From positions 29,420,821 through 29,484,820 of the forward strand of contig OY726563.1 of assembly GCA_963383645.1 (NCBI GenBank): a stretch of DNA of 64,000 nt, given 5' to 3'. Shown piece after piece: positions 1 to 64,000 of the stretch. The notes under the pieces were generated by a model. It saw only the letters and a program-made list of their open reading frames with translations. It did no database searches and had not been told where the DNA came from. The position numbers were made by a program, and so were the translations under genes. The DNA comes from Muscardinus avellanarius (taxonomy: Eukaryota; Chordata; Mammalia; Rodentia; Gliridae). The first letter of the stretch is position 1. The number at the start of each line of letters is the position of its first letter.

Positions 1-35
1 GTTAAAATTATGTTCAATTTGATTTAATTATTTAC

Positions 36-190
36 ACAGCTGTGTGGTGCACACCTACAATCTTAGCAACCTAAAAGGCTGAATCAGGAGGATGGCTAGT
101 TTAAAGCCAGCTCGGTCAATTTAGTGAGACTCTGTCTCAATATAAGAAATAAAAAGGACTGAAGATATATCTAAAAGTTAAAGTGCCACT
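36..190 (+). mobile_element. Old B1-dID SINE, partial
   Basis: This is a diverged left (B1-like) half: a gtggtgcacacc box, a ggaggat box and a gtgagactctgtctca end. It is followed by only the start of the tRNA-like half. Divergence and truncation mark it as old. Confidence 0.65.
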
Positions 191-373
191 GAATTTAATC
201 TCCCTTACTATATACACAAAAAAATGTTGTATTAAAGATTTTTATTGAATTATTTTATTTTTCATTTTGAAAAAAATTTGTTTGTATTAAGATTTATATT
301 TTGGAACCCTAAAAGTAATGAATAGCTTTAAAATACACTGTATTATTTAACTCATACTCCTTTTTTTTCTCAG

Positions 374-445
374 AGTGCAAGGATACAACACAGACTGAGG
401 GAAGACATGGATGAAGCCGAACAGGAATGGAAGATTCCGAATTGA
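374..445 (+). other. Possible terminal coding exon of an unidentified host gene
   Basis: A strong splice-acceptor-like sequence, a run of pyrimidines ending in ctcag at 361-373, precedes an open segment of 23 codons ending in TGA at 443-445. Its C-terminus reads DEAEQEWKIPN and is rich in charged residues, and no repeat that I recognise covers these 72 bases. If the exon is real, transcription would run into the LTR that follows, whose AATAAA at 768-773 could supply the polyadenylation signal. I do not recognise the peptide. The alternative is chance: an acceptor-like run followed by a short open frame is not rare. No upstream exon lies in the window to confirm it. Confidence 0.25.
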
Positions 446-474
446 GTCTCAACAGAGAGCATGACAAAAGGTCA

Positions 475-861
475 TGTTACAGTCTGGACTCTGGGAAAAT
501 TCAATGTTCTTCCCTCCACCCTTGTTTATTGGCTTGCAGTGGGAACGTGCTTCTGATTATATCTATGTTTCTGACATAACTTGAGTTTGTTTGTCCTTGC
601 CTCAAAAATAACCTGCAGGAAAGTAATGTATCCTATCTGATGATCATTGCAAGTGCTCTATATGTTTTAATGTACTCATAAAATATGCTTTGTTCTGTAA
701 ACTCAGTTAACCTTGTAGAATGTTACGAGAGGCATGTAGCATATAGTACAAAAGGGCTGTGTCTCTGAATAAAGATTGTCAGTTGCTAAAGGAGCAATTG
801 TCCATGTCCTTCTTCCAGGTCTTTCTCTCCCAAGTCTGGGGGACTCAGATCCCAGACAACA
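475..861 (+). mobile_element. LTR, probably a degraded solo LTR
   Basis: The segment starts with TG and ends with CA (cccagacaaca). It carries AATAAA at 768-773, followed about 60 bases later by a pyrimidine-rich U5-like end (tctttctctcccaag). Related U5-like sequence occurs near 10640-10686 and, reversed, at 62122-62190. I could not find matching target duplications, so the left boundary is uncertain and the copy is probably old. Confidence 0.5.
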
Positions 862-865
862 GACC

Positions 866-920
866 ATCATGTATCCTAGGCAAGCTCTCTCTACTAGTGA
901 GATATAATCTCAGCCCTATT
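866..920 (-). mobile_element. ID-type SINE fragment with the middle segment retained
   Basis: On the minus strand this reads as an ID head (gggctgagat, then a degenerate A box) that still has the gagcttgcctagg stretch. The dimeric SINEs of this window lack that stretch. It is therefore a monomeric ID relative and not a broken B1-dID. Confidence 0.55.
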
Positions 921-1578
921 TTTATTTCTGATGGGTGAATATATTTGATTTTAATAAATAAATTTCTCCTCTTATACTTTAATAAAGAAAGATTTCTTTT
1001 TAGTATCTTAAAATAATAAATATTCTATCTTGCTAGTTATTCAAATATTTTTCCTTTTGGTATTTTATATGATTATAGACAATATTCTGGAGCTCTAGAT
1101 GTTGTATGGAAGCCATAATTATCCTGGGTGTGCAAAGGATTATTTCACCATGGAAACATAATATAATTAAAACTTTTGGTTTTGCAGAAAATAATTTACT
1201 CAGTTTAGTCATGAAGTTGTCTACCCAGGTTCTTACTGCAGCATGTCCATTTATAGACTCTTCTGTGCCATGTAAAATTTACCTTCCAACCTAGGAGCTT
1301 TAAACAGCCAACATTTATTATCTCACACTTTCTGTGGCTCAGCAATCTGAAAATTGCTGAGATGTTTCTGGCTTATAAACTGAGGAAGTTGCATACTAAG
1401 ACTCCTGGCCTAGATCTGGAGAATCTGATTCAAATTAATGTCTATAGCTATTGGCACAAGACTTCAGCTGTTTATAACATGAACTTCTCATTTTTATATT
1501 TATTATTGTCATTATTTTTCATTTAACAAATAAAAATTTATATTGTATATTACATTCATTTTGTCATAAATTACAGAA
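921..1578. other. AT-rich DNA with no recognised feature
   Basis: No coding frame, splice structure or recognisable repeat is seen. The only notable tract is a (TA)n run at 1579-1602, just beyond its right edge. Confidence 0.5.
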
Positions 1579-1602
1579 TATATATATATATATATATATA
1601 TG
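1579..1602. repeat. (TA)n microsatellite
   Basis: This is an uninterrupted TA run of about 24 bases. Confidence 0.9.
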
Positions 1603-1619
1603 TATATGTCTATAAAGAA

Positions 1620-2020
1620 TATATTGGTGCATTGTTTTCATATATTATAATAAAGTTTATAGTAGTGAGGAGAGACATACACACACAGAGAACTTGGTGA
1701 GCTTCTCTCTGACTCCCTCTTCACTCCCTTCTCTTCCCCATATACAATATTGAGATTGGCAGTGATAATTTTGTATATGAACTTAATGTCAATTTAAATG
1801 TTTCCCTCATCAAGTCTTCCTTGTAGACAACCTCTATTACTCCACTGGAGATTCTCCTCCTTTGTCTGGAGTTGCTTTTGTAATCCAATTTCTTCCTAGC
1901 TTCCACATATGAGAAAAAACATATTACCTTTCATTATTTGTGACTGGTTAATATGACTTAGCATAATATTCTCTAGTTTTGCCCATTTTCTTGCAAGTGA
2001 TATAATTTAATTCTTAAAGC
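1620..2020 (-). pseudogene. L1 3' part: end of ORF2 and 3' UTR, decayed
   Basis: On the minus strand this aligns by eye with the ORF2 C-terminal coding region and 3' UTR of the better L1 copy at 3430-3560. It shares the ttgtgactgg...cttagcataat and ccatataagagaaa-type boxes. Stop codons and indels break the frame. It abuts a plus-strand ORF2 piece at 2030-2260, which suggests a single inverted insertion. Confidence 0.65.
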
Positions 2021-2029
2021 ATAAAGAAA

Positions 2030-2265
2030 TAAAACAAGATTAATTAGTGAAATGGCATTAAATTTAATAGCTTCTGTGTAACAAAGGAAACTATGAAAAA
2101 TCTTGAGAACCAAGAGAATGGGAGAATATCTTTGCAAACTATTCCTCTGAGAGAAGTATAAAATCTAGAATACACAAAGAACTTAAAAATAAAATACTGA
2201 AACAATGAAACAACTCAATAAAAATGGACAAATGAACTAAACACACTGAAATTTGGTTTCTGTGA
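2030..2265 (+). pseudogene. L1 ORF2 fragment in inverted orientation
   Basis: On the plus strand it encodes a decayed stretch of the ORF2 C-terminal third: aaaggaaactat, gagaatgggagaatatctttgcaaacta and an acttaaaaat region. This stretch lies upstream, in L1 order, of the minus-strand piece to its left. Head-to-head 5' and 3' parts are the usual product of twin-primed reverse transcription. Confidence 0.6.
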
Positions 2266-2548
2266 CTTCAAACATCTGTGTTGCTTTTTCCAAGTATAAT
2301 CTATTTTTTAATCTCCCTTTTCCCCCCATCAACCTATAAACTATCATAATTCTTTCAGAGGTAAGTTTCTCTGTATTTCATTTGTTTTTTAAAACATATA
2401 TGTCAAATAGAACACTTATTAAATTTCAATTATTTGCATAATTTTCTATTTCATTAAAACACAAAATAACTTTTTAGAAAGAAATTATTTATTTTTCAGT
2501 GGATAATCTAGTTTAATGATCATTTAAAATAGGCATTTAATGAGTAGT

Positions 2549-2731
2549 GCTAGCTGGGCATGGTGGCGTACTCTTGTAATACCCATGCTTGGGAGGCAGA
2601 GACAGGAGGGAAGCACAGGTTCAAAACCAGCCTCTCTGGTTTAAGAGACCCTGTTTCCAAATAAAATAAAAAATACCTCTGGGAGTGTAGCCCAGAGGTA
2701 TAAGGCCCCTGGGATCCATACCCGTACCACC
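2549..2731 (+). mobile_element. B1-dID SINE
   Basis: Both halves are present. The B1-like half starts ctgggcatggtgg, and the dID half has an A-box-like tgtagcccagaggt and a B-box-like end. A (GAAA)n tail follows at 2732-2783. A short tagtgct repeat on both sides is a possible target duplication. Confidence 0.85.
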
Positions 2732-2733
2732 GA

Positions 2734-2781
<48 letters not shown>

Positions 2782-2783
2782 AA
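2732..2783. repeat. (GAAA)n microsatellite from a SINE tail
   Basis: About twelve GAAA units continue the A-rich tail of the SINE. Confidence 0.9.
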
Positions 2784-3104
2784 TAGTGCTGGGTTGAATT
2801 GAACTGATTCAAACTCCTTTATTATACGGTAAGATCTATCAGGGCCAAAACATGTGTCTTACTCAACTTTTCTCTTTCTCATTATTTAGCACTTGACTTT
2901 TATATGAAAGATACTTGCCAAATAAATAATAAATTATCTTTAAAACTTAAATAATTGATCTAAAATTGAGAATATTTAAGATATTTATTAATACTAAGTA
3001 TAAACTATGATACATATTAGATTAATTCTAATCCTCAGAAATGTTCTTAAGAATATTTAAGCTAATTTAGATAATAGGTTCACTATTAATAAATCAATTG
3101 ATGT

Positions 3105-6100
3105 GCATATATCTTTTTTTGTTTGTTTTTGTTTTTTTAAATTTTTATTGGTACATTATATTCATACATCACATTGGGGTAAAAAAAAAACTTGTGTGTG
3201 CATACATGTACACATCACTGATTTAACCCCTACCCAATTCCCACCCCATTCCCTCCCCATCCCTCCTTCCCTTGCTTGCCTTAGTGGTTGACTTAGATAT
3301 GTTTAAGTACATTGTGTGTTTTAGAGATTTTCCTCTTTCCCCATGCTTTCTCCTCCTTTAGGTTACCTTGTTTGCTCCTCTATAGGATTTCCTTTTTCAT
3401 CTAGAGTTCCTCCTATGACCCATTTCTCCCTAACTCTCACATATTAGGGAAAGCATCTGATTTCTTATTTTTTGTGACTGACTAATCTCACTTAGCATAA
3501 TGTCCTCCAGTTCCATCCATTTCCCTGAAAATGATGTAATTGAGTTTTTTTTAATGGCTGAATAAAATTCCATTGTGTTCATATCCCAGAGTTTTGTAAT
3601 CCATTCATCTGTTGATGGACATCTTGGCTGGTTCCATGGTTTGGCTATAGTGATTTGTGCAGCTATGAACATAGATATATATGCATTAGTTTGGTAGTTT
3701 GGTTTCCTTTCTTTTGGGTAGATACCCAGAAGTGGTATTGCTGGATCAAATGGTAGATTTGTTCCCATTCTTCTGAGAATTCTCCATTCTGTTTTGCAAA
3801 GTGGTTGCACTAATTTGCAATCCCACCAACAATGTCTTAGAGTTTCCACTTCTCCACATCCTCGCTAGCATCTGTTGTTGTTTGTGTTTTGAATGATTGC
3901 CATTCTAGTTGGAGTTAGGTGAAATCTCAGGGTACTTTTGATTTGCAACTCTCTGATTGCCAGTGATGTTGAGCATTTTTCCATGCATTTACTGGCCATT
4001 TGAATTTCTTCTTTTGTGAAGTGTCTATTTAGTCCATTTGCCCATTTTGTTATTGGATGCTTTGTTTTCTTAGAGTTGAGTTTCTTGAGTTCTCTGTATA
4101 TTCTAGATATTAGTCCTCTATTGGTGGTGTAAGTGGCAAAAATCTCCCATTCTGTTGGCTCTCGATTGAGGGTCTTGATAGTTTCCTTTGCTGAACAGAA
4201 GCTCTTCAGTTTCAAGCAATCCCACGGATTGATTTCCCTTTTAATTTGTTGTGCCTTTGGGATCTTATTGAGGAAATGTTTATCTGTGCCTATGTGTTGC
4301 AGTGTTGGACCTATGCCCTCTTCAAGGAGCTTCAAGGTCTCTGGTTTTATTTCCAGGTCTTTGATTCATCTTGAATTGACTTTTGTACAGGGTGAGAAAG
4401 TGGGATAAATTTCCAATTCTCTGCATATGGTTAACCAGTTTTGCCAACACCATTTGTTGAACATGCTATCTTTTCTCCAGTGTAGGTTTTTGGCCCCTTT
4501 GTCAAAAATCAATTGGCTGAAAGTGTGTGGACTGTTTCTGGGTCTTCTATTCTGCCCCATTAGTCTATGTATCTGTTTTTTGGGCAGTACCATGCTGTTT
4601 CTATTACAATGGCTATGTAGTATAGTTTAAAGTCAGGTATTGTGATTCCTCCTGCATGGTTTCTGTTGCTGAGAACTACCTTGACTATTCTGGGCTTTTT
4701 GTTATTCCAGATAAATTTATGATTTTTATGTGTCTGTGAGGAATGATCTTGGTAGTTTAATGGGCATTGTGTTAAATCTGTAGACCACTTTTGGAAGGAT
4801 GGCCATTTTAATGATATTTATTCTGCCTATCCATGAACATGGAAGGTCCTTCCATCTTCTAATATCTTCTTCGATTTCTTTTTTCAGTGTTTTATAATTT
4901 TCTTTGTAGAGATCTTTTACCTCCTTGGTCAAGTTTATTCCCAAGTATTTTATTTTTTTTGTGGGAGATCCTGAATGGAACTGTTTTCTGAATTTCTTTT
5001 TCAGTGGATTTATGGTTGATGTAGAGGAAAGCTTATGATTTTTTAAGATTGATTTTGTATCCAGATACTTTGCTGAATCTGTTGATAAGTTCTATAAGCC
5101 TTTTGGTTGAGTTTGTTGGGTTTTCTAAATATAGTATCATGTCATCTGCAAATAGTGAAAGCTTGAGTTCTTCTTTTCCTATTTGTACTCCTTTGATTTC
5201 CTTTTCTTGCCTTATTGCTCTGGCTAGAGGCTCTAGTACTATATGAAGAGAAGTGGTGATAATGGACATCCTTGTCTCATTCCTGTTTTTAGGGGGAATT
5301 CTTGAAGTTTTTCCCCATTTAATATGATGTTGGCGGTGGGCATATTGTAGATTGCTTTAATAATGTTGAGATATGTTCGTTTTATTCCAGTTCTCTGCAG
5401 TGTTTTTATCATAAATGGATGTTGAATTTTATCAAATGGTTTTTCAGCATCTATTGAAATGATCATGTGATTTTTGTCCTTGTTTCTGTTTATATGGTGA
5501 ATTACAGGGATTGATTTTGTATGTTGAACCAGCCTTTCATCCCTGGGATGAACCCTACCTGGTCATGGTGTATGATTTCCTTTGTGTGGTTTTGAATGTT
5601 TGTTGTGAGTATTTTGTTTAATAGTTTTGCATCCAAGTTCATCAAAGATATAGGCCTGTAGTTTTCCTTCCTTGAGCTGTCTTTATTCGGTTTTGGTATT
5701 AGTGTGATGCTGGCTTCTTAGAATGTATTTGGGAGAGTTCCAGTTTTTTCTATTTCACGAAATAGTTTGAGGACTATTGGGGTTAGCTCTTCTATAAAGG
5801 TTTTATATAATTCACTTGGGAAAACATCGGGTCCTGGACTTTTCTTTGATGGTAAGCTCTTTATAGCTGTTTCAATCTCTTTGATTGTTATTGGTTTGTT
5901 TAAGTGTTCTATATCTTATTGACTCAGTTTAGAAAGGCTGTATTTATCTAGGAAGTTGTCAATTTCCTCCAGATTTTCCATTTTGTTGGAGAATAGTTTT
6001 TCAAAGTAGTTTTTGATAATCCTCTGGATTTCTACACTGTGAGTAGTAATTTCTCCTTTTTCATCCCTTATCTTCATAATTTGGGTTGATTCTCTCTTTT

Positions 6101-6625
6101 TTTCAGTTAGGTTGGCTAGTGGTTTAACTATCTTGTTAATATTTTCAAAAAAACAGCTTTTGGTTTTGTTGATTTTCTGTATTTTTTTATTCTCTATTTT
6201 GTTAATTTCTGCTCTAATTTAATAATTTCCCATCTTCTACTGGCTTTGGGGTTCAATTGTTCCTGCTTTTCAAGGGCTTTGAGGTGTATGGTTAGGTTAT
6301 ATATTTGAAGATTTTCTGTTTTTCTTATGTGAGCACTCAGTGCTATAATTTTTCCTCTTAATACTGCCTTCAAAGTGTCCCAGAGGTTTTGATATGTTGT
6401 ATCTTTATTTTCATTTGTTTCTAGAAATTTCTTGATTTCACTTCTTACATCTTCTATGACCCATTCTTCATTCAGAAGTGTGGTGTTCAGTCTCAACATG
6501 TTTATGTTGTTTCTGTGGGTCTTCTTATAGTTGATTTCTAGTTTCATTCCATTATAGTCTGACATAGGGAAATGATACAGGAAAGTATGTAACATTTTTA
6601 AAATTTTCTAGTGCTTATTTTGATG
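3105..6625 (-). pseudogene. 5'-truncated L1 with broken ORF2
   Basis: This is a non-LTR retrotransposon of the L1 family. In element order it begins inside ORF2 just after the endonuclease (about 6595-6194), continues through the reverse transcriptase with its FADD catalytic box (5033-5269), and reaches the cysteine/histidine region at the ORF2 C-terminus (3849-3430). The 3' UTR ends near 3130. ORF2 is split by stops and shifts into at least six frames, so it cannot make an active enzyme. ORF1, the 5' UTR and the endonuclease are missing. It is the longest L1 in the window and serves here as the reference for the others. Confidence 0.9.
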
Positions 6626-6970
6626 GCAATATACACTCTTTTTGTCAAACTATACTGGAAATAAATTGTGTATATCATAAGTGAATGTGTGTTGAGACTT
6701 TTCTTTACATTGCTATATAAATGGTAAAACAAACCAATACAGGTGTGCATATTTACATACATAAATGAATATATAGTGTGCATGTCTATAAATTTTGTTT
6801 AGAGTCAACTGGTAAAGACAGAGGTCTATTGGCTCAGCATTAGATATAAATTTTCTGATTTTATTCTAATCTCTTTGTATCATACAGAGTGGAATTCTCA
6901 GACATTTTCAGAGTACCTTGTATGAACCTGGCATAATTAAGAAAGGCTTATATTCAAATTTTATGTAATA
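6626..6970. other. AT-rich DNA with no recognised feature
   Basis: No repeat or open frame of note is seen between the truncated 5' end of the L1 and the next SINE. Confidence 0.45.
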
Positions 6971-6972
6971 TT

Positions 6973-7184
6973 AGCTGGGTGTGGTGGCACACGCTTATCA
7001 TTTCAGGTTTTGGGAGGCCAAGATAGGAGGTTTCAGGTTTAGAATAGCCTCAGCTAGTACTTAGTGAGGTCTTTTGCAACTCAGTGAGACCCTGTTTCAA
7101 AATAAAGAATAAAATATAGTGTTCAGAGTGTAGTGCGGAGGCAGAACGCCCCTGCATTCCATCCCTATTACCACAAAAATATGT
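6973..7184 (+). mobile_element. B1-dID SINE
   Basis: A B1-like half (ctgggtgtggtggcacacgc) is joined to a dID half that ends ccctattaccac plus a short A tail. Several substitutions mark a mid-aged copy. Confidence 0.85.
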
Positions 7185-8007
7185 AATATTCATAATAAAT
7201 CTTTTGAAATAACTATGCTATATACATTTAAGGGAAAAGTAAAGATTTACAGTAGTTGCATGTTTTATCTGATAAAAAAGACCAAGGAAAGGGTATTTAT
7301 TTTAACTTCTAAAAGGTTCCACTAAGTTTTAAATGTTTGTACAAATTATTCTACTAAAAGTTTTTAGTTCTCAGGAACAAGAATCATGCAGGAGGAATTA
7401 CAATATCTGATTAAAACTATATCAGAAAATCACAGTAATAAAAAAAGAATTATTTTGACACAAAAAACAATACATAGACCAATGGAATAAAACAGAAGAC
7501 TCAGAAACACATTTACATATTTATAGTAATTTAATTTTTGACAAAAGACCAAAAAAAACATACACTGGAAAAAATAGCCTCTTTAACAAATAATATCGGC
7601 AAAACTGGTTAACCATGTTTAGAAAAATGAAAATAAAATCCACTTTCTCACCCTGCACAAGAGTCAATTCAAGATAGATCAAAGACCTGGAAATGAGACC
7701 AGAGATCTTGCAGGTATTTGAAGAGGTCATAGTTCTACATTTCAACACAAAAGCACAGGTAAAAACTTTTGCCAAAAGGCACAAGAAATTAAAAGTAGGA
7801 TAAATACCTGGTATAATATTAAACGGAAAAGCTACTGTGCAGTTTGCAGCAAAGCATACTGTCAAGAACCTTAACAAAGAGAAGATAGAATGAGCTAAGG
7901 TTTTTGCCAGCTGTTCCTTTGATAGAAGACTAATATCTAGACTATACGGGAAATTCAAGAAACTCACTGCTAAGAAAACAACCCAATAAAAATGAGTAAG
8001 TAAAGAG

Positions 8008-11506: not shown

Positions 11507-13125
11507 TTTAAAATTTCATTGGTGCATTGTATTCATACATCTTAATGGGATACAAGACTTGTGTAGACATATATGCATATATCACCCAATTAGCCCCTAC
11601 CCAATTACCGCCCCATTTCCTCCCCATCCCTTCTTCCCATGCTTGGATTAGTGATTGACTTTGATATGTTTAAGTACATCATGTGCTTTACAGAGTATCC
11701 TTCTTCCCCCCTCCCATCCCTTCAGTTAGGTCACCTTATTTGCTCCTTTATATCATCTTCTTCATCTAGAGTTCATCCTGTTACTCATTTCTCCTTAGCT
11801 TTTGGATATTCGGGAAAGCATCTAATTTCTTCTTTTTTTGTGGAACATACTGAAAATGGCATACATTCAGACTATGTTTGGTACCCTCCCCTCTTCACCA
11901 TCCCCCTCCCCAAAATAAGTATCCAGGTAACCATGATATATTTATATTTTTACACACATTCGGGTATAGATCCTTCATTAATCAACCTTAGAATTCTTCC
12001 TCTCCTATCCTTCCATTCAAGCTTTGATGAGGTTTTTCCTCCATTGTCTGGAGTCCCTCTGGTATACCTCATACTCCCTAGTTTGGGCATATTAGAGAAA
12101 ACATAAGTCCCTTCTCTTTCTATGCTTGGCTGATCTTGCTTAACATAATGTTCTCCAGGTCTTTCAATCTTCTTGCAAATGACATGATTTTGTTCTTTTT
12201 TATTGCTGAACAGAATTCCATTGTGTGTAATTCCCATAATTTTGCAATTCATTCATCTGTTGATAGAGACCTAGATTGATTCGATAATTTAGATATTATG
12301 AACTGTGCTGCTATGAATATGGTATGCATATGTTACTGTAGTTCTCTTATTTTAACACCTTTGGAATGATACCCAGGAGTGGTAAAGCTGGATCATATGG
12401 TGGGTCCATTCCCAATTTTCTAAGGAATCTCCACACTGAGTACCATAGCAACTGAACTAGTTTGCACTCCCATCAACAGTGTGAAAGAGTTCCTCTTTCC
12501 GCACACCCCTGCCAGCATTTGTTGTTATTTGAGTTCTTCATGCTTGCAACTCTGATTGGGGTTAGATGGAATCTCAGCATAGTTTTGATTTGCATCTCCC
12601 TGATGGCTAATGATGTTGAACATCTTTTCATGTACCTATTGGCCATTTGTGTCTCTTTTTTGTGAAGTGTCTATTAAGTTCAGTTGCCCATTTCTTGATT
12701 GGGTTGTTTGTTTTGCTAGTGTAGAGTATTTTGAGCTCTTTGTATATTCTGGATATTAGCCCCCTATCAGAATGGTGGCTGGTACAGATCTTCTTCCACT
12801 CTGTAATCTTTCTCTTTAGGTTCTTGATGGTGTCCTTTGATGAGAAGAAACGTTTTAGTTTGATGACATCCCATTTATTAATTCTTGCTTTAATTTCTTG
12901 CGCTTTGGAGGTCTTGTTGAGAAAGTTACTGCCTTTCTGATCTTACACACTCATCGTTCAATAGTGTATCATTCAATTTCCATGCATTTAAATAGTTTAT
13001 TTGGGGTTTCCTCTTGTTGATTTCTACTTTCGAAAATTCCATTATGGTCTATAAAGATGCCAGGAATTATATTAAATCTTTTGAATTTGCTGGTGCTTGC
13101 TTTGTGTCCCAGGATGTGATGTATT
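11507..13125 (-). pseudogene. L1 with an internal deletion
   Basis: The L1 3' UTR and the C-terminal part of ORF2 run on the minus strand to about 12945, then the sequence jumps to a region just after the endonuclease (12980-13125). Most of the reverse transcriptase is therefore missing. The element lies between near-identical 15-base repeats, taagaatagtatctt at 11492-11506 and taagagtagtatctt at 13126-13140, which I read as its target duplication. This makes it a single insertion. The ORF2 frame is decayed. Confidence 0.75.
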
Positions 13126-14157: not shown

Positions 14158-14174
14158 CACTAAATAATTTTTAA
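14158..14174. repeat. Target-site duplication, left copy
   Basis: The sequence cactaaataatttttaa is repeated exactly at 16884-16900. Removing one copy and the DNA between restores a continuous ancient repeat (…ataataaaatacactaaataatttttaaataatagaaa, written in parts), which confirms the insertion boundaries. Confidence 0.85.
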
Positions 14175-14204
14175 CCATGCATCAATGTCTTTATTGTGTA
14201 TTTT

Positions 14205-14580
14205 TTTAATTTTTATTTTAATTTTTAATATATATATATATGTGCATTGTAGTCATACATCACAATGGAATACAAGACTTGTAAGGATATACAAGCACAC
14301 ATCATCCAGTTAGCTTTTATCCAATCTACATGCTATTCCTTCCCCCTCCCTCAATCCCATGCTTGATTGATGATTAACTTTGATACATCTCTTTACGTAC
14401 ATCATGAGTTTTAAAGAGATTCTATCCTCCCCCATCCTATCCACTCCAACTGGTAACCTTAATTACTTATCTATAGGGTCTTTCTTCAACTGAAACTCCT
14501 CCTATTGCCCATTTCTTCCTAGTTTTTGCATATTAGGGAAAGCATCTGGTTATTTATTTTCTGTGATATTTATTTGTGTA
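14205..14580 (-). mobile_element. L1 3' end module of the composite element (copy 1)
   Basis: On the minus strand it matches the L1 end at 3130-3480: the tgcattgtagtcatacatcac end, the ctccctcaatcccatgcttg box, and the gggaaagcatctgg end of ORF2. Only the last few ORF2 codons and the 3' UTR are kept. The switch to VNTR sequence occurs at about 14580. Confidence 0.8.
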
Positions 14581-14590
14581 TGCCGCTTTG

Positions 14591-16035
14591 CAAGTTCTGA
14601 TCCCACTCTTGATGGCCCCAGCCCTGTCCTGGGCACCAAGCAGACTCTGATGCCAGCCTCGCTGGCTCCAGTATTGGCCTTGCCTCATGGCAGGCCCCGA
14701 TCCAGGGCTTGCTGGCCTTGGCACCAGCCTCACCCCTCAGCAGGCTCCCATTTTGACCTGGGAGGCCCCAGCACTGGCCTTGCATCAGAGCAGGCTCCAA
14801 TCCCGGTCTCGCTGGCCCTGACACCGGCCTAAACCCTCAGCAGTTTCTGACACCAGCCTCAGAGGCCCCAGCACTGGCCTTGCCTCACTGCAGGCTCCGA
14901 TTCCGGCCTTGCTGGTTCCAGCACTGGCCTAAATCCTCTGCAGGTCTGATCCAGGCCTCGGAGGCCCCAGCACCGGTCTTGCCTCATGGAAGCCTCCAAT
15001 CTCAGCCTCGCTGGCTCTGGCACCTGGCTAACCCCTTGGCAGACTCTGTTCCCGGCCTCACTGGCCCCGGCACTGGCCTAATCCCTCATCAGGCTCTGAT
15101 CCTGGCCTAGGAGGCCCCAGCCCCGGCCTTGGCTCATGGCAGGCTCGAAGCTCAGACTCCCTGGCCCCAGCACCAGCCTAATCCTTCAGCAGACTCCGAT
15201 CTCGCTGGCCCAGGCACCAGCCTAACCCCTTGGCAGGTTCCTATCCCGGCCTCGAAGGCCCCAGCAATGGCCTTGCATCAGGGCAGGCTCCAATCCTGGC
15301 CTCGCTGGCCCCAGCACTGGCCTCACCCCTTGGTAGGCTCCTATCCGGGCCTCGGAGGCCCCAGCACCAGCCTTACCTCATGGCAGGCTTAGATCCCAGC
15401 CTTGCTGGTTCCAGCTCCAGCCTAACCCATGGGTAGGCTCCGATCCCAGCCTCAGAGGCTCCAGCCCCAGCCTTGCCTCACGGCAGGCTCCGATCCTGAT
15501 CTCGCTGGCCCTGACACCCACCTAAACCCTCGGCGGGTTCCAATCCCGGCCTCGGAGGCCCCAGAACCGGCCTTGCCTCAGGGCAGGCTCAGATCCCGGC
15601 CTTGCTGGTTCCGGCTCTGGCCTAACCCCTCAGCAGGCTGCAATCCCGGCTTCAGAGGCTCCAGCCCCAGCCTTGCCTCACAGCAGGCTCTGATCCCGAC
15701 CTCGCTGGTTCCAGCACAGTCCTCACCCCTCAGCAGGCTCCAATCCCAGCCTCGAAGGCCCCAGCACAGGCCATGCACGGTAGGTTCCGATCCTGGACTG
15801 GCTGGTTCAAGCACAGGCCTCACCCCTCTTCAGGCTCCAATCCTGGCCTCGGAGGCCCCAGCACCAGCCTTGCCTCACAGAAGACTCTGATCTCGGCCTT
15901 GATGGCCCCGGCACTGGCCCAACCCCTGGGCAGGCTCTGATCCTGGCCTCAGAGATCCCACCACCAGACTAGCCTCACGGCAGGCTCTGATCCCGGCCTC
16001 ACTGTCCCTGGCACCGGCCTCACCCCTCGGCAGGC
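14591..16035 (-). repeat. VNTR of 50-bp units (copy 1)
   Basis: About 29 units of exactly 50 bp start at 14591, 14641, 14691 and so on. Two types tend to alternate, giving a 100-bp higher order. One has ctcgctggcccc...cctaacccctcggc and the other ctcggaggcccc...ccttgcctcacggc; both share caggctccgatcccggcct. GC content is far above the flanks. Because 50 is not a multiple of 3, open frames here are periodic artefacts. Confidence 0.9.
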
Positions 16036-16039
16036 TTGG

Positions 16040-16560
16040 ATCCAAGCACCCTTTTCAAAACACAGCATGTTGTCCCAAGTTCCCAAGAGTGCATGGTGGT
16101 AGCATTCTGTCTCTGGGGTTATTTCTTCAAAAGATCCAGGTGTATTGCATCAGATCTCTGACTCTCCTAAGTACTGGCCGCTGCTATCGCTGCTACCTCC
16201 ACCATCTCAATTCTTTCCCAATATCTTTTCCCACACTGCATGTTGTCCAGTATTCCTGAGCATGTGCGACGGTAGCATTCCACCTTTGGGGCAATTTCTT
16301 CAGAATATCAGGGTGGGTTGGATCAGATTTCTGCTTCTCCCAAATACAAGCCTCCACCACCACCGCAGCCACCGCTACCAACACCACATTCCTCCTAGGT
16401 CTCCACTGACCTCCCTCCTTACAGATGATGTCCAGGATTCTTAAGCATGTAAGGAAGAAGCAATCCCCCTTCACGGGGAATTTTTCCAAAAGTTCCGGGA
16501 CAATTGGATATATTTTGTCTGCATCTCCAAATCCTGACAGCCGCGGCCATCTTGATCCCT
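16040..16560 (-). repeat. Three ~170-bp promoter-like units (copy 1)
   Basis: On the minus strand three degenerate repeats follow each other. Each has a gatggtgg/agatggcc-like start, a gagatctgat-like box, a gaacttttgaa box with aaattaccccagagg, and a gaatgctacc...catgc...ggaat box. The best YY1-like site is at the far 5' end (16541-16556). In layout they recall the tandem promoter monomers of mouse L1 5' UTRs, but I see no sequence match. Promoter function is inferred. Confidence 0.65.
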
Positions 16561-16900
16561 CTCCAATTTTTTATCTTTTTTTTCTTTCTTTTTTTTAAAT
16601 AATAGAAGACTGCTTGTGTGGTTTGAAGAGGTTATGGGATCAGGCACTTGGTAGCAATGAATTTTTTCTTTCTTCCCAAAGCGGAGTCCCACAGCCCCAC
16701 CGCGCAGAGCAGGATCTGCTGTTCTAAGCACATTACAGCCCGGCGCAGCACAGCAGGGCTGAGTTCCTCGGTACCCGCGGCTTGGCCTCCCACCCGGCTC
16801 CAGGCCTTCCCAGGAGTGGACCGGCCGCCCGCCCCCAGTCTGGCTCCGGGCTTTCCTGGGAGCAGGCCAGGCCACCCACCTCCCACTAAATAATTTTTAA

Positions 16901-17788: not shown

Positions 17789-17804
17789 ACATTATTATAT
17801 TTTT
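17789..17804. repeat. Target-site duplication, left copy
   Basis: The sequence acattattatattttt recurs exactly at 20567-20582 and brackets the L1-like element between them. Part of its T-run merges with the reversed poly-A tail. Confidence 0.75.
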
Positions 17805-18119
17805 TTCTTTTTTTTTATTAGTGCACTGTATTCATACATCATAGTAGGATACATACTTTTGTAGACATACTTGCACACTTTTCCCAGTCAGCCCCCACCC
17901 AATCCCCACCCCATTCTCTCCCTATCCCTCCCTTCCATGCTTGGCTTAGTAGTTGACATCTAGTATTATGGCAATTTATCTAAAATTAAAAATGGTAATC
18001 TCACATAACAGTTTCATTTGTCTGATACCAAGCTTTTGATGACTAAAAGATGACATTTCAATATTTCTTTTTGCTTTCTTTCTTACCAGAGAATTCTTTT
18101 TTCTATTTTTTAGGTGGAA

Positions 18120-18850
18120 CTATCATATATTTATATATTTATTTTTCAGAAAAAAATCTATCCTAATATGGAATATGGACTCTAGGTACCCAAAACGATC
18201 TTGAAAAATAACAAAGCTAGAAGATATATATTTTCTGATTTCAAACCATATAAAGCTACAATAATTGAAACAGTGTAGTACTATTCTAAAGGCAGATATA
18301 TAAACCATTGGAGTTAAAAAAAAGCCTAGAGCTAAATTCTTCCCTATATTGTCAAGTTATCTTTGACAAGGTTTCCACGAACATTTGGTGGTGGAAATAA
18401 TAATCTTTTAACTGAATATTGTTGAAACATAATAATTACATGGAAAAGAATAAAGTTGGACCCTTACCTAATCCCATATACAAATATTAACTCAAAATAG
18501 ATAAAAGACCTAAATATAAATCTTAAGACTATAAACTTTTAGGAGAAAATCTGGGTCATTAAACCTCACAACATTGAAATTGGCAGTGATTTCTTGGTTA
18601 TGATTTCAATGGCACAGGCAACAGAACCGTATACAAACTCCCTAAAAAATAAAAAAAATATTGTATATCCAAAGACAATGTAAACAGAGTTAACAGTTAC
18701 TAATAGAATGGGATAAAATATTTCCAAATGCTATATCTGAAGGTATATTAATATTCCAACTAGAAATCCTAAAAATTAACAACAATAAAGGCAAACAATA
18801 CCCTTTAGAGATAGGTAAAAGACTAACATAAATAATGAATCTCCACAGAT
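18120..18850 (+). pseudogene. Old L1 ORF2 fragment, antisense inside the ORF1-only element
   Basis: The plus strand has decayed ORF2 C-terminal coding sequence of an ancient L1 type: ttctgatttcaaaccatataaagctac, tcaaaatagataaaagacctaaatataa and tgatttcaatggcacaggcaac. It lies opposite to the surrounding element, between ORF1 and the 3' UTR. It is much more diverged than ORF1, so it was probably picked up and did not decay in place. Confidence 0.65.
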
Positions 18851-18891
18851 AACCAATCTTAGTTGTCTGTTGGATGGAAAATCTTGTTTCT

Positions 18892-19821
18892 CTAGTTCTG
18901 GTGTGTGTTACCTATTTCTTCTTTGTAGTTAATCTCTTTGAGTATTTTCTCTAGCGCTGGTTTTGAAGACATAAATTCCTTCAGTTTCTGTTTGTCATGG
19001 AAGCTTCTTATTTCTCCATCTAATTTGATAGAAAGTTTTGCTGGGTAGGAAATTTTTGGCTGGAAGTTGTTTTCTTTCAGAATTGGGAATATGTTACTCC
19101 AAGCCCTTCTGGCTCTCATAACTTGGTTTGGGAAGTCTGGAGTGATTCTAATTGGTTTGCCTCTGAATGTCACTTGGCCCTTTGCTTTTGTTGCCTTTAA
19201 GATTCTCTGCTTGGCTTCCACATTGGTCATTTTGACAATTATGTGGCGTGGGGATCCTCTTCTCCGATCCTGTCTAAAGGGAGTTCTGTAAGTTTCCTGG
19301 ACCTGTGTATCGGCCTCTTGCTCGATGTCTGGAAAATTTTCTGCTATTACTTCCTTGAAGAGATTGTTGATCCCTTTGGTTTCACTTTCTTTTCCCTCCT
19401 CTATTCCAATTATTCTTAGGTTAGCTCTCTTAAAATGGGCCCATATTTCTTCAATATCAGATTCCTGCTGTCGGATATTTTTTCCTAGATTAGAAACTAT
19501 GCGTTCATTTTTGGAATGATCATCTTCTAAGAGCGAGATTCTGTTCTCCATGTGTTCTAATCGGTTGTTTGTGCTTTGAATTGAGGCCTTTACTTCATTA
19601 ATTGCATCCTTTATCTCTTTTTGGCTCTCTCTGAGTTCTTTTCGAAGCACCTCTATTATTTCTACAGTTATTTTCCTGATTTGATCTTCTAGAAATCTCT
19701 GATTTTCAGTTTTATTGGGTTCTGATGTTGTGGAGTTGTGTGCATTCATTGCTCCAGTATTATTCCTCTTTCCCATGATTTCGGATGTTTGTGCCTTCTC
19801 TGGGTTCTTCCCTTGGGTCAC
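18892..19821 (-). CDS. L1 ORF1 protein, intact reading frame
   Basis: The frame is 309 codons, ATG to stop, without interruption. ORF1p of L1 is a trimeric RNA-binding chaperone that coats L1 RNA in the cytoplasm. The N-terminal ~40 residues are polar. Residues ~41-130 are heptad-like and charged, forming the coiled coil. Residues ~133-225 form the RRM, with LRIIGI at 135-140 and RHIIVKM at 192-198 as its core strands. The C-terminal domain (~226-292) holds the conserved RARR at 236-239 and PKISYPAKLS at 255-264. Human ORF1p is 338 residues, and the difference lies mostly in the N-terminal part. The start has the correct spacing after a GC-rich 5' UTR. No ORF2 follows. Whether it is expressed is unknown. 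Confidence 0.9.
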   Translation of the reverse strand: MTQGKNPEKAQTSEIMGKRNNTGAMNAHNSTTSEPNKTENQRFLEDQIRKITVEIIEVLRKELRESQKEIKDAINEVKASIQSTNNRLEHMENRISLLEDDHSKNERIVSNLGKNIRQQESDIEEIWAHFKRANLRIIGIEEGKESETKGINNLFKEVIAENFPDIEQEADTQVQETYRTPFRQDRRRGSPRHIIVKMTNVEAKQRILKATKAKGQVTFRGKPIRITPDFPNQVMRARRAWSNIFPILKENNFQPKISYPAKLSIKLDGEIRSFHDKQKLKEFMSSKPALEKILKEINYKEEIGNTHQN

Positions 19822-20566
19822 TATGACTTCACTTAAGGTGTTCTGGATCTCGAGTCATTAGTATCTCAGACCCCACTACTCCTTTACTGGGTTTTATCAC
19901 AGAGTCTCCGACCCAGAGAGTCGATACGGCTGCTTTAGACTGTGGGGGGTGCCAGGTTGCACGTTCTCCTATGGTGTGATATCTCTGCCACCGCCCCTCC
20001 CCCACTGGGTCAAGTCCCAGGGAGTACAGTACTGGGATTTCTCCTCTGTGGCCCGCAATTTGACTCACTGTTCTTGAGTGCGCAGATGTAGCTGTACTGG
20101 CCTCGCTGAATTCGGTGCTGCTGCCGCCGGTGGCAATATGGCGCCGCTGCTACACCCTCGGCTGTGGGGCTGTTTTTCTTCTTGGTTTTGATTTCGACTC
20201 TGAATCCCTGCAGCGTGTGCTGAGCTCAGCCACTGGGAGCTTTAGACGCTCTCTGCTTGGAGAACTCCCGCCTGGCTGTTCTGCAGTGGCTCACCTCGGC
20301 TTGCTGTAGCCGTCCCGTGAGTTTGCCGGTGCTGCCGGCAGTATGGCACTGCTGCCGCGTCTGCCGCGTCCTCGGGCGCAAGGCCGGTTATCTCCTCTGT
20401 GGCTCTGTTCTCAGTCCGCTTTCTCTCTGGAGCCTGGTGATTTTTTGTTTCACTGGTGATGGTGTTTTCTGGCTATGAAAGGTGCTGATTTTGTGGTAAT
20501 GGAGATTTGTTGTTAGCGGGGCTCTTAAGCCCCACTTTTCTCGGTCGCCATCTTCCCGGAAGTCCC
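19822..20566 (-). promoter_or_regulatory. L1 5' UTR / internal promoter
   Basis: About 745 bases of CpG-rich leader precede ORF1. The first bases in element order (gggacttccgggaagatggcg, 20566-20546) combine an ETS-like cttccgg and a YY1-like aagatggcg. Known L1 promoters carry a YY1 site at the same place, where it sets the transcription start. Other gcgccatattg and ggcggtggc boxes occur inside. Promoter activity is inferred from position. Confidence 0.75.
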
Positions 20567-35062: not shown

Positions 35063-35099
35063 AAAAAGATAGGTTTTTTAATTTATTATTATTATTTTT

Positions 35100-35440
35100 T
35101 TGGTAATCATACATCACTTTGGAATACAAGACTTGAGAGGATATACAAGTACATATCATCCAATAAGCCTTCATCCAATCTCCATCCCATTCCCTTCCCC
35201 TCCCTCGATCCCATGCTTAATTGGTGATTATCTTTGATATAATTGTTTACGCACCTCATGAGTTTTAAACAGATTCCATCCTCCCCCATCCTCTCACCTC
35301 TGATTGGTCACCTTAATTGCTTTGCTATAGGGCCCTTTCTACTACTCGACCCCCTCCTGTTACCCCTTTTCTCTTAGTTCTTGCTAATTAGGGGAAGCAT
35401 CTGGAATTTATTTTCTGTTCTGTTTCTCTGTGCATGCTGC
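35100..35440 (-). mobile_element. L1 3' end module of the composite element (copy 2)
   Basis: It matches both copy 1 (14240-14580) and the independent L1 end at 3130-3480, including the ccctccctcgatcccatgctt and ggggaagcatctgg boxes. A-rich sequence with AAT units forms the tail at 35073-35100. Confidence 0.8.
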
Positions 35441-35454
35441 ATTGCAAGTTCCTA

Positions 35455-36355
35455 TCCCACTCTTGACAGCCCCAGTAGTGGCCTGGCCACCTGGAGGACT
35501 CTGATCCCGACCTCGCTGGCTCCAGCACTGGCCTTGCCTCATGGGAGGCCCCGATCCTGGCCTTGCTGGCACCTTCACCGAACTAACCCCTCCCTCAGCG
35601 GGCTCCTCTCCTGGCCTCAGAGGCCCCAGCACCAGCATAGCCTCACAACAGGCTCCGATCCTGGCCTCGCTGACCCTGGCATCAGCCTAACCCCTTGGCA
35701 GGCTACTATCCTGGTCTTGCAAGTCCCTGCTCCATCCTTAACTCACAGCAGTTTCTGATCCCAGCCTTGCTGGCCCCAGCACCGGCCTAACCCCTCAATG
35801 GCACTGATCCTTGCCTTGAAGGCCTCAGTAGCAGCCTTGCCTCACGGCAGGCTCTGGTCCCGGCCTCTTTGGCCCAGGCACTAACCTCACCCCTTGGCAG
35901 GCTCAGATCCCGAACTCGGAGGCCCCAGCCCCAGCCATACCTCAAGGTAGGCTCCGATCCCAGCCTCGCTTTTCAGGGCACTGGCCTAACCACTCAGCAG
36001 GCTCCTATCCAGGCCTCAGAGGCTCCAGCACTGGCCTGGCCTCACAGCAGGCTCCGATCCCAGCCTCAATGGCTCCAGCACTGGACTAACCCCTCGGCAG
36101 ACTCTGATTCCGGCCAGAGGCCTCAGAACTGGCCTTGCCTCGTGGCAGGCTCCAATCCCGGCCTCGCTGGCTCTGGCACTGGCCTAACATATCAGCTGGC
36201 TTCAATCCCAACTTCGGAGGCCCCAGCACCGACCTTGACTCAGGGCAGACTCCGATCCCAGCCTCATTGGCCCCGGCCCTGGCCTAACCCCTCGGCAGGC
36301 TCCAACCCCGGCCTTGCTGGCCCCAGCACTGGCCTCACCCCTCAGCAGGCTCTGA
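35455..36355 (-). repeat. VNTR of 50-bp units (copy 2)
   Basis: About 18 units of 50 bp show the same two alternating types as copy 1. A few units are shortened or lengthened by small indels (for example near 35580 and 36110), so this array is shorter and less regular. Confidence 0.9.
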
Positions 36356-36369
36356 TCCGAGCACCCTCT

Positions 36370-36880
36370 TCACTCAGCATGTTTTCCCACATTCCCAAGG
36401 GTGCATGGTGGTAGTATTCTGCCTCTGAGGTAATTTCTTCAAAAGTTCCAGGTATATTACGTCAGATCTCTGCCTCTCCTGAGTACCTGCCACTGCCAAT
36501 GCGACTGCTTCCACCATTTCAAATCTTTCCCAAGCTCTTTTCCCATACCACATAATGTCCAGTATTCCTAAGCATGCGCGACAGTAGCATTCGACCTTTG
36601 GGGTAATTTTTCAGAGGATCAAGGTGGGTTGGATCAGATGTCTGCCTCTCCCAAATCCAAGTCTCTACTGCCATCTCGGCCACTGCTACCACCATCGCCT
36701 TCCTCCTAGGTCTCCGCTAGACTGTCTCCTTACAGGTGATGTCCAGGATTCTTAACGATGTCGATAAGCAGCAGTCCTCCCTCACGGGGAATTTTTCCAA
36801 AAGTTCCAGTTCAGATGGATATATTGTGTCTGTATCTCCAATATTCTAGCTGCCACCGCGGCCATCTTAACCCCTCTCGA
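36370..36880 (-). repeat. Three ~170-bp promoter-like units (copy 2)
   Basis: The units start near 36880, 36710 and 36540 in element order. Shared boxes are gagatctga, ggaacttttg, aaattccccgtgagg/aaattaccccaaagg and gcatgcttaggaatactggac. They can be aligned with copy 1 over the full length. Confidence 0.65.
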
Positions 36881-37009
36881 ATATTTTTCTTTTTTCGTTT
36901 CCCTTTTTTTATTTTTATTTTTTAAACGAGAGAAGGGAGTATGTGTGGTTTGGGGAGGATGTGGGATCAGGCACTTGATAGGGATGAAATATTTTTTTTT
37001 CTTTCTGGG

Positions 37010-37353
37010 TGGGAGGGGGGTCTCCTAAGGGTGCCCCGCTCATGCTCGCCCATGGGCCAGGAGTTGGGGCCTTGCAGCCAGAACCTCTGAGCCCTTCCAG
37101 GTGGAGGGGGTTGCCTAAGGGTGCCCCGCCTGGGCCCGCCTACCCGCCCAGTTTTGGGGCCTTCTGGCCCGGACCTCTGGGGCTTTCTGGGTGGGAGGGG
37201 GTCGCCTAGGGTGCCCTGCCCATGCCCACCAACCCTCCCGGAATCGGGGCCATGCGGCCGGACTTCCGGGTGGGGGGGTCACCTAAGGGAGCCCCACCTG
37301 CACCTGCCCACCCTCCCTGGGGTTGGAGCCATGCTGCTCAGACCTACGGGGCC
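37010..37353 (-). repeat. GC-rich 5' tandem module of composite copy 2
   Basis: Four degenerate units of about 80-93 bp repeat gggtgggaggggg, gcctaagggtgcccc and ggggcc...ggacctctgg. This module is absent from copy 1, which has a different GC-rich 5' block at 16670-16883. Confidence 0.75.
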
Positions 37354-37385
37354 AAAAAAGATAGTTTTAATACAAATTAATAAAT

Positions 37386-62724: not shown

Positions 62725-64000
62725 CAAAATGGCGACTGAGGGACACAGCACCTCTCAGTAGCTGAAGTAAATAAAGTTTAAATACTGAGAAAGCAGTGTC
62801 TAAATCAACAAAACAAATACATACCAGGAACCAAAACACATCCTGTACCTCGGCGGAACCCTGAACGTGAACAAGAAGAACAAAGATCGGACACGGGACC
62901 TGCTCAGATACAATCTGACCGCGGACCGGAACGCTGAGCCGCGGGCTGCTTTGGCAGCTGTCCAAGGAGCTGCCTGCCCGATATTTCCATGGCAAGATAA
63001 TCCGGGAATAAAAACGGACTTAGGACCGCATCCTAAGCAGCGAGCAGCACCCACCAGAACTCTGTCTGTCCACCAGCGACCGGATCACATCGGCACAGAG
63101 ACTCACACGGATTCCTGCACCAAGACAGGTACCTGAGGGCGCCCTAGTAACTGGGGTCCTAGCGTGTGCGGAGTCGCAGTCTCAAACCCCCACCACGGGC
63201 TCAAGCCTCAGAGCACTCTCCTCGCGCATCCTGCCTGTCCCCTACTAGTAATCAGTGCCTGTACACTGCCCTCCTAAATTGGAGCCTGCTTCTGTGGCTA
63301 ACCCCTGCCACCTTGCCAGAGCCTACCCTCCAGGCTGCAAAAGCACTGGGAGACCCGGAAATCTCCTTGGGGCACCCCCAGCCTCTACGTCCCGCGGGAC
63401 GCAGAGACCATTGCTGGACACCGCACACTGGACCCTTGAGCACCTACCCTGCACCCCTGGCCCACCGCGGGGTATTCCCAACCTCCTGGTAGCCAGATGC
63501 TTAGTTCTAAGTGAGAACACAGCTCAATACACCTTGGAAGAACATACCAGCAGCAATAGACAGCTGCACCCACTCTCACTAGGGTCCAGTATTAACAGGG
63601 CATCCAGCCTGCATTCTTGGAATAGGCAGAGCTCTGGCAGTAAGTGTGGCCACCCAGGAACCAGCATTCATTTGCCCAGGGCACATCTTGGGACCACACC
63701 TGGCTAGCCCAGCTGGAATTTCCAGAGACACAAGAAAATCCATCGGGCCACAAAATCTGCTCAGGACCTCAGGGGGAAGTGCCAATTACACTTTAGTCAC
63801 TCTCCACCCCTGCTGTAGGGAAGCACAGGCTGGAGGCGAGGGTGGTGAGTGCAGATGTGCTGACCACAGGTTAGAATTTCGCAGAATCTGTGAACTGTAC
63901 AGAATCAAATAACAGTGAAACCAGACACCCGGACACATAAACCTAAAGCAGCTAAAGGAGAAAAAGGTGTCCAAACACCCAGAGTGACTTAAGAAGATAA
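62725..64000 (+). promoter_or_regulatory. L1 5' UTR, second type, running out of the window
   Basis: A CpG-rich leader of at least 1,276 bases starts with a YY1-like caaaatggcgactgaggg, the usual place of the YY1 site in L1 promoters. Typical leader boxes follow: ggacacgggacctgctc, caggtacctgagggcgccctag and acacccagagtgactt. It shares no obvious sequence with the 5' UTR at 19822-20566, so it represents a different L1 promoter lineage. No ORF1 start lies inside the window. The open frames within it are on both strands and are not credible proteins. Confidence 0.75.

Follow-up and report, generated by a model that had tools for sequence, protein, structure and literature searches.

According to the literature, the VNTR composite retrotransposons SVA, LAVA, PVA, and FVA occur specifically in hominoid primates (PMC4432496). 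These composites have in common a 5' region of CT hexamers and Alu-like sequence and a VNTR made of GC-rich repeats of 30-50 bp, and they differ in their 3' ends; SVA is reported to be moved in trans by L1 (PMC4432496).

The window considered here, the whole stretch of 64,000 nucleotides that was analysed, lies on the X chromosome of the hazel dormouse (Muscardinus avellanarius), so the composite described below falls outside the stated hominoid restriction. A reading made from the letters of the window alone (the sequence-only reading) had proposed that an SVA-like layout arose separately in a rodent lineage, with the 3' end of that lineage's own L1; the copies, module order, duplications, and L1-derived 3' end reported here support this proposal. 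Very probably the dormouse genome holds a large family of non-autonomous composite retrotransposons that are copied via RNA with L1 machinery and resemble SVA and LAVA in layout. In the open-licence literature, the top-ranked matches (titles and starts of abstracts) include no VNTR composite of a rodent or dormouse, and no paper combines Muscardinus with retrotransposons; the word "repeat" is absent from the main text of the hazel dormouse genome paper (PMC11190645).

Structure of the window element

The interval 14175-16883 of the window is one insertion, sense on the minus strand, with its 5' end at 16883. It is enclosed by a 17-bp target-site duplication, cactaaataatttttaa, whose copy on the 5' side of the element (16884-16900) matches the copy on the 3' side (14158-14174) exactly; the perfect duplication claimed from sequence is therefore confirmed. 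From 5' to 3' the modules, all on the minus strand, are a GC-rich module, an A/T linker, three units, a VNTR, an L1 3' end, and an A/T-rich tail, and every part named in the sequence-only reading is present.

The GC-rich 5' module (M5gc) occupies 16612-16883, and its consensus was built from 19 copies; in some other copies further GC repeats of about 90 bp lie upstream of it. The linker, A-rich on the sense strand, follows at 16556-16611. The three units are U3 (16395-16555), which begins ...AAGATGGCCGC, U2 (16220-16394), and U1 (16045-16219); an internal pattern of U2 served for the genome-wide count given below. The units are 161-176 bp long (about 170 bp had been claimed), their consensus sequences are mutually 64-69% alike, and they start with AAGATGGC-like sequence, the same as L1 5' ends.

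The GC-rich VNTR extends over 14600-16044. TRF reports an array at 14640-16043 with 28.3 copies of a 50-bp unit, close to the approximately 29 counted by the sequence-only reading; because a period of 100 bp (13.7 copies) scores better, the 50-bp units alternate in pairs, forming a 100-bp higher order.

The L1 3' end (L3, 14192-14599) consists of the end of ORF2 followed by a 3'UTR with a G-rich stretch and an A/T-rich close; the segment 14529-14566 shares 89% identity with the last part of another L1 ORF2 of the window. The tail of the element is A/T-rich rather than pure poly(A), with AATAAA at the border of its apparently copy-specific end (AATAAA at 14190-14195, tail end at 14175-14191). 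This end is reached by none of the 39 other places scored in the search with the 3' module, and a few A/T-rich alignments extend into its first bases; it is possibly a short 3' transduction or a tail variation. No ORF1 match was found within the composite, the stop-to-stop frames listed as touching it are at most 154 aa long, and Rfam gives nothing at gathering score within the window.

Copies elsewhere in the genome

The genome searched comprised 2.497 Gb in 104 contigs; the published count is 212 scaffolds (PMC11190645), the small ones probably being left out. A search with the 5' module returned 2499 first-look candidates, and the best 40, which were scored, are 77-86% identical in the main match, self excepted. 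Complete modules in the same order and the same orientation were found in 17 of 20 loci fetched with this module (about 8 kb each), counting L018, which has no linker match. The three exceptions are L011, with an inverted 5' part, L025, whose VNTR runs off the 8-kb piece, and L026, without U2 and U1. The corresponding search with the 3' module returned 4309 first-look candidates, of which the best 40 were scored; the VNTR lies directly upstream of the 3' module in all 10 loci fetched, the window copy included.

Patterns gave a wider count. A 33-base pattern from the 3' module is found at 2966 sites with at most two mismatches, and the U2 pattern, at the same tolerance, at 1367 sites genome-wide; the reversed-pattern control gave 0 sites in each case, so both counts exceed chance. 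Since the pattern would catch no more than roughly one half to three quarters of the copies at 5-8% divergence, some 4000-6000 copies of this type are expected, an estimate that presupposes even divergence.

Ten exact sites of the 3' pattern were hand-picked among 100 listed, all on contigs C1-C5. Seven are joined to a VNTR in sense orientation, two to an inverted VNTR (judged by eye from the sequence), and one is truncated at the junction; L1 ORF2 body was found at none of the ten. Conversely, 14 of the 82 exact U2 sites listed in the span common to both lists have a 3' site within 8 kb, which in every case shares the strand of the U2 site and lies downstream of it by 0.96-2.9 kb.

The VNTR varies widely in length, from 150 to at least 6194 bp with a median of 912 bp, among 21 elements with the layout of the window copies (layout A; both window copies and the hybrid L016 described below are counted), the spans having been entered by hand from module alignments. 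In L025 it occupies positions 1-6194 and, continuing past the end of the fetched piece, is at least 6.2 kb long.

The window itself holds a second, older copy on the minus strand at 35077-37354, recognised by TRF and module comparison as having the matching layout. Its A/T tail is followed by the L1 3' end to 35451, the VNTR to about 36362, and U1-U3 to 36868, beyond which lie the A/T linker and a GC module with tandem repeats of about 90 bp (TRF 37001-37251). Its target-site duplication, 14 bp with one mismatch, stands at 35063-35076 on the 3' side and 37355-37368 on the 5' side. K2P distance to the module consensus is 0.15-0.18 in this copy (four modules) versus 0.05-0.09 in the first (five modules).

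For the sampled A-type copies, the non-CpG K2P distance to the consensus ranges over 0.035-0.052 between modules, each represented by 15-18 copies. In the GC module the distance is 0.101 with CpG sites and 0.047 without them, as expected for decay of methylated CpG. Mammalian substitution rates are 2-4.5 per site per thousand million years, and on these rates the sampled A copies would be roughly 8-26 million years old; the sample consists of the best-scoring 20 copies, so its divergence understates that of the family, whose mean is older.

The L1-derived 3' end and a candidate partner

The L1 3' module of the window element is 73.5% identical to the L1 3' region at 11522-11836 of the window and 70% identical to that at 3114-3477; for the L3 consensus the corresponding values are 79% and 76%. 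A tree of 40 L3 copies and these two L1 3' ends places all the L3 copies in a single clade (support 0.996), separate from both L1s. Pfam gives no family for the L1 fragment at 3430-3861.

An ORF1-only L1 occupies about 17803-20566 of the window on the minus strand, with a 5'UTR, a 320-aa ORF1, and a 3' end with an A-rich tail; it is flanked on both sides by the duplication AAATATAATAATGT and has no ORF2 match. HAL1 elements are ORF1-only L1s, and we take this element to be of that type. The Pfam L1 ORF1 domains PF02994 and PF17490 score over the cut-off in it, and L3 is a relative of its 3' terminus. Over about 1161 bp, the 40 genomic copies scored, itself among them, show 98-100% identity, which indicates that the family was active recently.

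L1s that look intact, whose match is free of stops and whose open frame spans 1279 aa, are found at 29 of 150 listed endonuclease-domain places. In L043, the single L1 with such a frame whose 3' end was fetched, the 3'UTR has no L3 match at E 1e-4, which gives no support for an intact L1 lineage as the partner. A better candidate is probably a second L1 lineage, one whose 5'UTR resembles that of HAL1: on one strand, 3.8 kb separate a match to the ORF1/ORF2 junction of this lineage from a match to an L3-related L1 3' end (C8:71771362 and C8:71775200), and the two matches may belong together.

The L1 lineage with open ORF2 frames has a long 5'UTR that contains a stop-to-stop frame in the sense direction. 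This frame has 151 codons at 63252-63707 of the window and at 1209-1661 of L042, and a similar frame of 161 codons is found in L045.

Subfamily B and an A/B hybrid

A second subfamily, B, was found via a diverged U segment upstream of L016. The search gave 2963 first-look candidates, and the best 40, which were scored, are 88-91% identical in the main match, self excepted. With modules defined from L040, the B layout (L040 and L049-L052) consists of a GC module, an A/T linker, two U-like units, a second M5-like segment, a SINE in sense orientation directly before the VNTR, and then the L1 3' end. The SINE, identified by matches to SINE copies in fetched loci, is presumably of the B1-dID type. 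The start of L040 is 77% identical to the HAL1 5'UTR over 125 nt and 75-84% identical to L1 5' regions; L050 and L016/L041 start with another block, some 330-390 bp long and containing AAGATGG, which is 86% alike between them. The SINE and the presence of at least two different 5' starts imply that pieces were added in B.

L016 (positions 2251-8001) together with L041 makes up a 6.6-kb hybrid inside one 16-bp duplication. It contains, in order, a B 5' part, half a SINE, an A middle, a 3.6-kb VNTR, and a 3' end placed with B in the tree (support 0.987). An A element may have been inserted into a B element, after which the two arrays recombined; among the 40 scored places, L016 is alone in spanning this SINE-A junction.

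Origin of the middle modules

Eleven L1 5' regions from two lineages (L042 and L044-L047; L048 and L053-L057) were scanned for the composite's modules. In ten of them the GC module, U units, and VNTR have no match, among which L056, having no recognisable L1 5'UTR, counts for little. Linker matches in some L1 5' regions are A-rich simple sequence, and weak GC-only matches in L055 and L053 (E 0.15-0.19) were disregarded.

The sole match is in L053 (C9:113433700), where positions 1-660 hold a U unit, an M5-like segment, a short VNTR, and a linker directly upstream of the L1 5'UTR start. This block gave 3369 first-look candidates, the scored ones about 77-81% identical in the main match, self excepted. 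The junction between block and L1 is spanned at five of 40 scored places, namely L053 itself, C10:46107990, C23:29982415, C4:120041039, and C14:46233297, which points to a small set of L1s with a composite-like block in front; possibly these are L1s that captured the 5' end of a composite. Because even in L053 the middle modules are found only upstream of the L1 start, the composite does not, on these 11 L1 5' regions, resemble a plain L1 fragment, and an L1 5'UTR origin of these modules was rejected as unlikely.

The same evidence bears on the alternative that fares best, an internally deleted L1. Under this explanation a single extinct L1 carried the GC module, the AAGATGGC units, and the tandem array in its 5'UTR and lost ORF1 and most of ORF2; the family would still be mobilised by L1, as a deletion derivative rather than a patchwork. 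The likeness between unit starts and L1 5' ends and the start of L3 inside the end of ORF2 suit such an origin, which would also explain the composite-like block in front of the L1 5'UTR at five loci. It is nevertheless unlikely, since the one L1 5' region of 11 that matched (L053) did so upstream of the common L1 start, most other matches of the junction search start at or near that L1 start, and the pieces of B appear to have been added. A composite assembled from separate pieces is thus preferred. The sequence-only reading had it "built from local L1 parts": that description holds for the 3' end and, in B, for the 5' start of L040, and the 11 scanned L1 5' regions do not extend it to the GC module, the 170-bp units, or the VNTR.

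Relationship to the hominoid composites

Two features of the hominoid composites are present in the dormouse composite: a central GC-rich VNTR of variable length with units in the 30-50 bp range (here 50 bp) and a 3' end derived from a retroelement (here the L1 3' end). For the CT hexamer, no run of two or more CCCTCT/AGAGGG occurs in either window copy. For the Alu-like 5' region, a comparison with the SINE copies of the window gave no match to the GC module or the U units at E 1e-3; the SINE of B is in sense orientation and stands just before the VNTR.

That dormice carry a true relative of SVA or LAVA, received by descent or transfer, would account for the same kind of layout. This is very improbable on a comparison of features: the window copies contain no CT-hexamer run, their GC module and U units have no match among the window SINEs, and L1s of the dormouse's own genome match the 3' end. 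The composite instead appears to have been assembled independently of SVA and LAVA in apes.

Chromosomal distribution and insertion hallmarks

Copies are present on at least 22 of the 24 chromosome-size contigs (C1-C21 and C23 among the matches listed), the 2966 sites of the 3' pattern divide 1470 to 1496 between the strands, and the flanks are unlike among the 24 elements compared. Spread of one locus with an L1 fragment and a minisatellite, by segmental duplication or in a satellite-like manner, would fit a GC-rich tandem array in thousands of copies and is rejected as next to impossible in view of this distribution, the balanced orientations, the differing flanks, and the separate duplications that part of the elements carry.

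Insertion of individual RNA-derived copies, the preferred explanation, is reflected in the element ends. Wide-flank scans for target duplications were noisy, with control scores up to 20 and 32, and the count was taken from a narrower flank scan of 24 oriented elements at a threshold score of 9 or more. Direct flanking repeats reach this score in 9 of the 24 elements versus 33 of 552 mismatched pairs (6%). The other 15 have no target duplication at this score in the automatic test; several elements carry nested insertions or have uncertain 5' ends, and longer 5' ends add two duplications, in L016 (16 bp) and L050 (13 bp, one mismatch). Five of the nine duplications are preceded by TT, which fits cleavage by the L1 endonuclease, and five of seven are so once the doubtful L022 and L051 are dropped; the duplication of L022 lies in SINE-like flank and L051 has a different, longer candidate in the wider scan, so neither is leaned on.

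The tails are A/T-rich, many of them holding an AATAAA-like sequence, and the inverted 5' parts of L011, L059, and L061 fit twin priming; copies truncated at the 5' end occur as well. Such duplications, tails rich in A, and inverted 5' parts are typical marks of target-primed reverse transcription by L1, from which we infer that the family probably depends on L1. Dispersed copies that preserve the module order and have separate duplications, which the sequence-only reading had expected of a family, are therefore on hand, with their divergence measured; modules confined to the 5'UTR of full-length L1s, or flanks shared between copies, which it had listed as speaking against a family, were not found in this sample.

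Proposed mobilisation and implications

In the proposed mode of copying, transcription by RNA polymerase II would begin within the CpG-rich 5' module or close to it (in B, alternatively, within the 5' block that precedes it), and polyadenylation would take place at the L1 3' end. The L1 ORF2 protein would then nick TT/AAAA-like sites, with the A-rich tail serving for priming. Recruitment of L1 proteins by the RNA may be aided by the L1 3' end and perhaps also by the GC-rich VNTR, and recombination from array to array at the VNTR would alter its length and shuffle the parts on either side.

A broader reading is put forward tentatively and is, taken as a whole, somewhat doubtful. It holds that the L1s of mammals build up one type of passenger time and again, each time independently, with a GC-rich 5' module, a GC-rich VNTR of units of about 50 bp, in some cases a 7SL-type SINE, and a 3' end from a retroelement. 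Such repeated assembly would imply that the VNTR itself is functional, in that it turns an RNA into a good L1 substrate, and that array recombination drives the exchange of modules, even returning 5' ends to L1 (L053).

The rodent case can be regarded as a second experiment of nature beside the hominoid composites. The features common to both (VNTR, GC-rich 5' part, and retroelement 3' end) likely matter for copying by L1, and those that differ (CT hexamer and Alu-like part) likely do not; an independent rodent case makes the role of the VNTR directly testable. For annotation, pieces of the composite could be filed apart as L1 and minisatellites in dormouse genomes.

Comparison with known systems

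HAL1, like the dormouse composite, is a non-autonomous relative of L1, and the HAL1-type element of the window has a 3' terminus related to L3; HAL1 keeps ORF1, whereas the composite has no ORF1 match and contains a VNTR. The B1-dID SINE is carried by subfamily B, where it is only one part of the composite.

SVA resembles the dormouse composite in having a 5' module, a central VNTR, and a retroelement 3' end, and movement in trans by L1, described for SVA, is likely in the dormouse. The 3' end of SVA, in contrast, is retroviral (SINE-R), and the CT hexamer and Alu-like region of SVA were not found in the dormouse composite. LAVA of gibbons is likewise non-autonomous, with a central GC-rich VNTR, an L1 fragment at the 3' end, and subfamilies that differ in their parts (PMC4432496). 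It differs in its gibbon host, in a 5' end of CT hexamer and Alu-like sequence, and in a 3' end of AluSz and L1ME (PMC4432496), whereas the dormouse composite has a GC module and 170-bp units at its 5' end and takes its 3' end from an L1 related to those of the same genome. By its features, the dormouse composite would thus work like SVA and LAVA and is very probably not a member of their group, being without the CT hexamer and Alu-like 5' region and belonging to another host lineage.
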